This document shows, piece by piece, positions 3,093-5,384 of a DNA stretch of 35,896 bases. This DNA is from Verrucomicrobiota bacterium. GTDB lineage: Bacteria > Verrucomicrobiota > Verrucomicrobiia > Limisphaerales > AV2. Made by a program: the position numbers and the translations under genes. Numbering within the stretch: the first letter of the stretch is position 1; the number at the start of each line of letters is the position of its first letter. The stretch spans positions 1-35,896 of the forward strand of contig QHNT01000061.1 in the NCBI GenBank assembly GCA_003218515.1, read 5' to 3'. The notes beneath the pieces are model-generated. The model saw only the letters and a list, made by a program, of their open reading frames with translations, ran no database searches and had not been told where the DNA came from.

Positions 3093-5384
3093 CTAGTGGT
3101 TAAACAAAAATTCTTTGCTGCTGAGCAGCGCCCAATACATGTCCTCGATCAACGGACGTTGTTCGCCTTCTTTGGCGTCCTCAAGCACGTTAAGAATCTT
3201 TTTCTTCTCCCCTGCCGTTGGGAAACGCGATAAGGAACTCAGGTAGGCTTCCTCGATCATTTTTTCCGGCGGGGTTTTGTCGACGAGAAGTTTGGTGATC
3301 TGATTGTCTTTGGCCATGAGCTTCTCGTTGAGCGTGTCGCCGTTGGCAATGTGGAGCATCTGGGCGACGTTGGGTTCGGCGGCGCGTTCGCATTCGCAGG
3401 TCTTCTCGCGGTCGGGCCGGCCAAAGGTTTTCAGGAAATAGGAAGCGATCTTTGTGTCGGGAAGCTGGATGGCGCGAAAGCCGATCGGATACTTCTCGCC
3501 AAGGCCGCGGTTCTCGTTGCGCAGATCGGTCCGGAACTCGGTCGGCATGCCGGTCACTTGTGAGTAGGCATCGAGCAGCACTTCCGCCATGAGCCGGCGC
3601 GGATAGTAACGGGCGTAGAAGCGCGAGTCCGTCGCGTTCCCCGGCAGCGGCGAACTGCTGCGTTGATAGGTCTCCGACTGGAGAATGGCGCGCATGAGCG
3701 ATTTGAGGTCGAACTTTTGGTCGGCCAGATACTTCGCGGCGGCAGAGAGAAGTTTTTCGTTGCTGGCCGGATTGGTTGCGCGCAGGTCATCCACCGGGTC
3801 CACGATTCCAACGCCGAAAAAATTTGCCCAGATGCGGTTCACGATCGAGCGGCCGAAGTACGCATTATTGGGCGAGGTGAGCCAGTCGGCCAGAGCTTCG
3901 CGACGATCCTGCGGGTCATCGAATGGAAGCGGATTGCCGTCGAGCGGAGCGGGCGGTTGTCGTTTGCCGGTGAGGGGCTGGACGATGTCGCCGCTGTTCG
4001 AAACGAAAATAATGTCATCGCCATCGTTCGCTCCGGTTTTGGCGCGGACGCGGGCGAACAGGTTGGCGAATTTGTAATACTGTTTGTTGGTCCATTTCTC
4101 CATCGGATGGTTGTGGCATTTGGCGCAATTGACGGACATGCCAAGGAACGCCTGGCTCGTCGTCTCGGCCATCAGGCGCGGGTCTTCGTGCAGGACGTAA
4201 AAATTAGCGGCGCCATTTTCGAGCGTGCTGCCCTGGGCGGTCAGGATTTTTCGGACGAAGACATCCCAGGGCGTGTTGGCGGCGACGTTGTTCCGAATCC
4301 AGTTGTAATAGGACCACATCGCCGGCGCTTTCAGCTTTTTGCTTTGAACCAGCAGCAGGTCGGACCATTTGTAGGTCCAGTAATCAACGAACTCGGGCCG
4401 TTGCAGCAGCGATTCGATGAGTTGGTCGCGTTTCTGTAGCCGCCGAGGTGAGGAGGCGGATTCATTGTCCGGTGGTTTGTTCCCCCTCCTTGCGTCGGGG
4501 GCTACGCCCTCGGCCAGGAACGCGCGGACCTCGCCGGCGGTCGGCAACACGCCGAGGGTGTCGAGAAACGCGCGCCGGATAAATTCCTCGTCGCTGCAAC
4601 GCGGGGAAGGCGGCAAATTGAGGCTTTGCAGTTTCTCGATCGCGAGTTCGTCAATGAAGTTCCGTTTCGGCGCTTTGGCGAAAGCCGCGGGCGAGACTTT
4701 GTTCGTGTAAGGAATCGTGACCGATGCAATCGCGATCCGGCTCAGATACCACGCCGTGATCGCGCCTTCACCGTTGCCGACCACTTGCACCTTGCCGTTG
4801 TCGTCGACCTGCGCGACCGACGCATTCGCGGCCGAGTATTTGGCCCAGCGCGTAACGTCCTCGCTGTGGCCGTCGCTGAACCAGGCGTGGACGATGAGTT
4901 GCTGGCCGGCTGCCGGTTTGAGAACTAAATGTTCCGGCAGGATTTCGATCCGCTCAATGCGCGGATCGTCTGAGTTCGGTCCGGGCGCCCCGGCGGCGAT
5001 CCATTCGGCCAGGACGCGATATTCCAGCGAGCCGACGTCGAAACGCTTGCCGCCTTTGTGCGGAAGTGTGGTTGTCGGTTTGAGGAGGAGCAAGCTGCGC
5101 CCGGGATCGGCTGGGATGATCCGGCGTCCGAGTGCGTTGCGTGTCAGCGTGAGGTAATCGCCTTCGTCGTCATAGCCGCGGAGTGAAAGTTTGAATCCGT
5201 TTTGTCCCGCGGCGGCGCCGTGGCACGCTCCGGAACTGCAACCCATTTTGGCGAGCACCGGCTGGACGTGATTGCGGAAGGTGATGTTTGTGATTGTGAG
5301 CGCGGTGGTTGATTCGGTCGTCCTGCCGGGAAGAGCAAGAAGGAGGCTGCCCGCGAAACACGCTAAAGGACGCGAAAAGCTCAT
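3093..5384 (-). CDS. DUF1549/DUF1553 (PSCyt2/PSD1) cytochrome-type protein with Ig-like domain
   Basis: This 763-residue protein has a signal peptide (about residues 1-24). An N-terminal cytochrome-like segment has 'CSSGACHG' (CX4CH, near residue 50). A bacterial Ig-like (BIG2) stretch follows near residues 165-230. The DUF1549 domain has 'FIRRAFLDTLGVLPT' and the heme motif 'NCAKCHNHPMEKW'. The C-terminal DUF1553 domain has 'RSIVNRIWANFFGVG' and ends 'SSKEFLFNH', the usual end of the family. It is a marker family of Planctomycetes and Verrucomicrobia, probably exported; the reaction is unknown. It lies just downstream of the DUF1501 gene, its habitual partner. Residues about 293-316 come from a 70-bp palindromic element and interrupt the usual 'FLA...KR..LI..LL.RPE' stretch, but the frame is kept. 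Confidence 0.93.
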   Translation of the reverse strand: MSFSRPLACFAGSLLLALPGRTTESTTALTITNITFRNHVQPVLAKMGCSSGACHGAAAGQNGFKLSLRGYDDEGDYLTLTRNALGRRIIPADPGRSLLLLKPTTTLPHKGGKRFDVGSLEYRVLAEWIAAGAPGPNSDDPRIERIEILPEHLVLKPAAGQQLIVHAWFSDGHSEDVTRWAKYSAANASVAQVDDNGKVQVVGNGEGAITAWYLSRIAIASVTIPYTNKVSPAAFAKAPKRNFIDELAIEKLQSLNLPPSPRCSDEEFIRRAFLDTLGVLPTAGEVRAFLAEGVAPDARRGNKPPDNESASSPRRLQKRDQLIESLLQRPEFVDYWTYKWSDLLLVQSKKLKAPAMWSYYNWIRNNVAANTPWDVFVRKILTAQGSTLENGAANFYVLHEDPRLMAETTSQAFLGMSVNCAKCHNHPMEKWTNKQYYKFANLFARVRAKTGANDGDDIIFVSNSGDIVQPLTGKRQPPAPLDGNPLPFDDPQDRREALADWLTSPNNAYFGRSIVNRIWANFFGVGIVDPVDDLRATNPASNEKLLSAAAKYLADQKFDLKSLMRAILQSETYQRSSSPLPGNATDSRFYARYYPRRLMAEVLLDAYSQVTGMPTEFRTDLRNENRGLGEKYPIGFRAIQLPDTKIASYFLKTFGRPDREKTCECERAAEPNVAQMLHIANGDTLNEKLMAKDNQITKLLVDKTPPEKMIEEAYLSSLSRFPTAGEKKKILNVLEDAKEGEQRPLIEDMYWALLSSKEFLFNH
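4436..4505. repeat. 70-bp palindromic element inserted in frame in the DUF1549 gene
   Basis: The left end, 4436-4459, begins gtagccgccgaggtgagg. The right end, 4482-4505, finishes tgcgtcgggggctac. The right end is an imperfect reverse complement of the left. In the minus-strand protein the element encodes a hydrophilic, Pro/Ser/Arg-rich run of about 23 residues ('NKPPDNESASSPRRLQ') exactly where the family normally has a short loop. This is the look of a small palindromic repeat tolerated within a coding region, like the Rickettsia palindromic elements in principle; no relation to those is claimed. Confidence 0.7.

Follow-up and report, generated by a model that had tools for sequence, protein, structure and literature searches.

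An in-frame REPIN in a DUF1549/DUF1553 gene of a Verrucomicrobiota genome lies at a codon where related species carry unrelated repeats

Doublets of GTAG-tagged REP sequences (REPINs) have been described by Bertels and Rainey in 2011 (PMC3116915) and by Di Nocera in 2013 (PMC3733652). Small palindromic repeats that move tend to be regarded as extragenic. In Opitutus terrae, a member of the Verrucomicrobia, in-frame REP dimers of 20-30 amino acids occur in housekeeping genes including both uvrA genes, and at approximately one shared position in recB the REPs of two Xanthomonas species differ (PMC3733652). The same paper treats the Rickettsia palindromic elements (RPEs), which bear a CGTC tag. 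REPs that lie in frame within genes have been reported before, also for Verrucomicrobia, and the case presented here belongs to that kind; the papers covered, mostly from outside the subscription literature, give no description of same-codon replacement by unrelated repeats at the extent reported below.

The window, that is the whole stretch of 35,896 nucleotides that was analysed, corresponds to contig C164 of G000, a soil Verrucomicrobia genome (5.89 Mb, 87% complete, 490 contigs), and contains the following features.

3093..5384, minus strand: host gene for a Big_2 + DUF1549 (PSCyt2) + DUF1553 (PSD1) protein of 763 amino acids (open reading frame and domains)
4434..4435, plus strand: CT dinucleotide just before GTAG (enrichment across copies; PMC8266576)
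4436..4505, no strand: REPIN of 70 bp (inverted repeat, motif matches, genome copies and folding)
4436..4459, plus strand: REP arm 1, GTAGCCGCCGAGGTGAGGAGGCGG, in which the unpaired GTAG is followed by a short hairpin, CCGCC/GGCGG (motif and fold)
4460..4481, no strand: spacer of 22 bp between both REPs (element comparison)
4482..4505, minus strand: REP arm 2, GTAGCCCCCGACGCAAGGAGGGGG (motif match)

The 70-bp element was identified as a REPIN, composed of two inverted GTAG-tagged REPs with their GTAG ends facing outward. As in other GTAG REPs, a palindrome within the range of 20-40 nucleotides is bordered on one side by an unpaired GTAG. The REP motif was matched twice in the window as compared to 0.05 matches expected, and single-strand folding of the element was far more stable than that of shuffled sequences (z -5.8, 0 of 200). 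The original prediction of a palindrome inserted in frame in a DUF1549 gene was confirmed, as the arms at 4436-4460 and 4481-4505 are 80% complementary and the open reading frame continues through the element without a stop. The parallel it had drawn with Rickettsia RPEs applies to the mode of insertion, palindromes being held in frame in many protein genes in both cases, but not to identity, since the window element carries GTAG instead of CGTC and, as a REP doublet, works alike without being a member; nor does it extend to novelty, given the precedent of Opitutus terrae (PMC3733652). The described REPINs and GTAG REPs, on the other hand, share with the present family the GTAG tag, the hairpin palindrome, a high copy number, a length of about 70 bp, inverted doublets with a variable spacer, the presence of RAYT genes in the same genome and a mostly extragenic location.

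The host open reading frame matches PF07583 and PF07587, and the REPIN reads in its frame as VAPDARRGNKPPDNESASSPRRLQ, starting at about residue 294; GNKPPDNESASSPR is an example of a predicted REPIN-encoded peptide segment. The FLxx-to-KRD distance is approximately 4 residues in orthologues versus 25 in the window protein, which agrees with the short loop that had been claimed for this point, although the gain is a net 21 residues (63 nucleotides) and not about 23. The 70 bp of the REPIN are not divisible by three, and about 7 nucleotides of target are absent as compared to the usual loop. The relatives that share the gene comprise the Verrucomicrobia MAGs AV2, AV4 and AV5 and, further out, Pedosphaera/Limisphaerales bins, and alignment of DUF1549 homologues found the segment to be absent from orthologues outside the genus, about 100 in all (overlapping sets of 29 and 80). 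A conserved domain was rejected on this ground. Internal inserts of at least 8 residues were present at this loop only, in the set of 29 and then in that of 80, and these overlapping sets included three unrelated inserts at the loop across five genomes; the insert at the same loop in G041 was not clearly a dispersed repeat in that genome. A predicted structure, poor overall (mean pLDDT 54) and usable for loop placement only, positions the insert as a low-confidence loop between two helices.

The 24-bp REP unit is present in 120 copies in G000 (at most 2 mismatches) as compared to none for a reversed-pattern control, so a single-copy chance palindrome was rejected and the element belongs to a high-copy family. 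None of the other copies in G000 matches the whole window REPIN at more than 83%. A census of 74 stretches of G000 (572 kb) returned 93 REP clusters, comprising 48 outward doublets, mostly of 55-90 bp with variable spacers, and 43 single units. As judged by a codon-usage score on both flanks of each cluster, 27 of the 93 are in frame within coding sequence (25 of 71 strong clusters), at most about 3 appear out of frame, and some two thirds lie outside any open coding frame, indicating that inside genes survival in frame is the rule. Of the in-frame outward doublets, 9 use one phase and 8 another, while the remaining phase, which would place TAG in frame, was never found among them. Unlike in the described REPINs and GTAG REPs, about a third of the clusters in this genome reside in frame within genes. 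Their hosts include essential enzymes, and among them are UvrA, sulphite/nitrite reductase, alanyl-tRNA synthetase (AlaRS), leucyl-tRNA synthetase (LeuRS), LpxB, ArgJ and an M20 peptidase; as with the intragenic REPs of Opitutus terrae, these are in-frame REP doublets in a verrucomicrobial genome with uvrA among the hosts. The uvrA gene at locus L059 (positions 1-2865) has an in-frame REPIN, as do both Opitutus terrae uvrA genes (PMC3733652). At positions 2938-3085 of L080, the final part of a REP (AAGGAGGCGGACGGT) recurs about six times in tandem. Another repeat family lies within 150 bp of 13 of 71 REP clusters versus 6.4% at random places, a threefold excess (P 5e-4).

Comparison of the window site with congeners established that an identical REPIN is common to G000 and G004 (100% over 70 bp), whereas the flanks are only about 90% identical, and it is therefore probable that the REPIN allele moved recently. 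G002 has neither repeat at the site but a typical short loop, and carries no copies of the REP family of the window. The less expected part is that G001 and G003, despite about 97% identity of G000 and G001 around the site, have an unrelated palindrome at the REPIN codon, CCCTCACCCCGTCCCTCTCCCC...GGGGAGAGGG...GGGGTGAGGGG (L123, L125). This palindrome, too, belongs to a dispersed family, of which G000 has 190 near-exact half-sites, and its divergence between G001 and G003 is similar to that of its flanks. An insert is thus found in four of the five congeners, as would be anticipated if diverse repeats had been recruited as a linker for the protein, but the unrelated sequences at the site, the roughly 100 orthologues that do without an insert and its placement by the poor model in a low-confidence loop render a selected function very improbable; the extra residues are probably of no use to the protein.

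The distribution of alleles could also reflect homologous recombination between congeners, with repeats that rarely move themselves. Informative sites in the flanks pair G000 with G001 (176, versus 28 and 17 for the alternatives), in conflict with the repeats, and the identity of the G000 and G004 REPINs set against this grouping requires transfer or conversion beyond simple turnover. The REPIN in LpxB is likewise 100% identical in G000 and G004. Some 150-750 bp upstream of the REPIN in the coding direction (about 4655-5255 of the window) lies a mosaic tract, with a similarity of about 92% between G003 and G004 but of about 75% between G000 and G004, which points to recombination between the species. 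However, no more than 5 bp from the right end of the element G004 already differs from G000, so that an exchanged tract would have had to stop almost exactly at the element, and allele exchange cannot create unrelated elements in the first place, so that as the principal cause it is a possible but doubtful explanation.

Repeat swapping was also evident at other sites. Thirteen other in-frame REPIN sites of G000 were compared with congeners; AlaRS, where G002 alone aligned, and poorly, was left out, and the window site was added, giving 13 informative sites. A different repeat family occupies the site in some congener at 8 of these (the window gene, SiR, LpxB, a phosphodiesterase, ArgJ, LeuRS, a class-III aminotransferase and a DUF7133 protein), the replacing repeats being another REP family, a GGTGGGGCGAGC palindrome, TTCAACNN octamers (matched 106 times in G000 and not at all in G002) or heptamers, while the insert is absent from a congener at UvrA, PNP and one DUF1592/1588 gene. 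A second set, chosen independently of the REPIN, consisted of eleven in-frame sites of the dispersed palindrome that G001 and G003 carry at the window site (the C-palindrome), which is in frame in 21 of 67 sampled copies and on whose sequence a literature search retrieved nothing relevant. A different or additional repeat was observed in a congener at 7 of the 11 (NuoM, an A2M protein, an MFS protein, MnmE, PheS, HemL and TrpE). Both sets together yield different repeats at the same site in 15 of 24 compared sites, as distinguished by eye on alignments, with a few calls, of octamer or heptamer runs and degenerate palindromes, being less certain than the REP calls. In contrast to the single shared recB site (PMC3733652), the sites here are numerous and are common to REPs and to unrelated, non-REP repeats. 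Every genome involved is a fragmented metagenome assembly, and misassembly or misbinning might be suspected of producing such differences, but MAGs that were assembled separately and derive from different samples show identical alleles, the reading frames are intact and the two sets of sites, although ascertained independently, agree in behaviour, so we give hardly any credence to an artefact.

A more specific process is hinted at by two paralogues of the window protein, on contigs C307 and C106 (L203, L205), which are just 38-41% identical to it and in which a REP nevertheless ends at the same codon, as if sequence-specific targeting operated beyond tolerance. In the C106 paralogue the elements are stacked in the order C-palindrome, heptamer repeat and REP. 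The junction, CTAC|AG AAA CGC or equivalent, falls at the same nucleotide in three DUF1549 genes. On a further contig, C55 (L200/L207), the match to a DUF1549 gene is broken by a TAG. If the machinery preferred an existing palindrome or a specific target, repeats would swap at the same base, in keeping with this shared junction, with the clean, remnant-free swaps at most of the 15 of 24 sites and with the enrichment of CT directly before GTAG (18 of 107 units versus 4.8% background; also before the window element). Nevertheless, REPs, C-palindromes and octamer and heptamer tandem repeats share sites and no single enzyme is expected to act on all of them, whereas a single insert-accepting loop in the host protein is enough for reuse, and targeted replacement is accordingly judged improbable. 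The broader proposal, that bacterial proteins have few docking loops where an active and targeted process exchanges unrelated mobile repeats for one another at the same codon, leaving species with different interchangeable peptide cassettes in essential enzymes, appears unlikely to us.

We favour, with a probability of roughly 85%, the explanation that REPINs are mobilised, survive in rare permissive loops, and are later reused and overwritten. As a non-autonomous mobile pair of GTAG REPs, the REPIN would have been spread, probably by a transposase of the RAYT (Y1) type that acts on hairpins in single-stranded DNA, and would have landed in the one DUF1549/1553 loop that tolerates long inserts, where it may owe its retention to a junction that by chance left the reading frame intact. 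Once the loop held a dispensable segment, other families could land and older ones be lost, and homologous exchange between related species may further have reshuffled the alleles; loop reuse and allele exchange together would leave different repeats at one codon in different species. The simplest account of reuse is that few loops accept a long insert, and the stacked elements and the threefold excess of other repeats near REPs are consistent with a relay, each insert opening a place for another. Repeats that are usually called extragenic are here repeatedly inside essential genes, and their exchange for unrelated ones between close species represents a natural experiment on the loops that accept new peptide segments, for which congeners with empty sites provide a means to date and order insertions.

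With regard to mobilisation, the TnpAREP transposase is reported to cleave at a CT dinucleotide (PMC8266576). Unlike in the described systems, the cognate RAYT was not located, as none flanked by the REP family of the window was found in five congener assemblies (75-95% complete). G000 contains eleven Y1 transposase matches, other GTAG REP families flank several of the RAYTs in the genus, and in G004 a REP of a sister subfamily adjoins a RAYT. At L226 of G002, the same species that is without the REP family of the window, a RAYT-like gene is located amid eleven GTAG hairpins of another REP family. Finally, the intergenic DNA close to the 3′ end of the host gene contains a copy of the C-palindrome (CCCTCACCCCGGCCCTCTCCCC), at 2793-2814 of the window.
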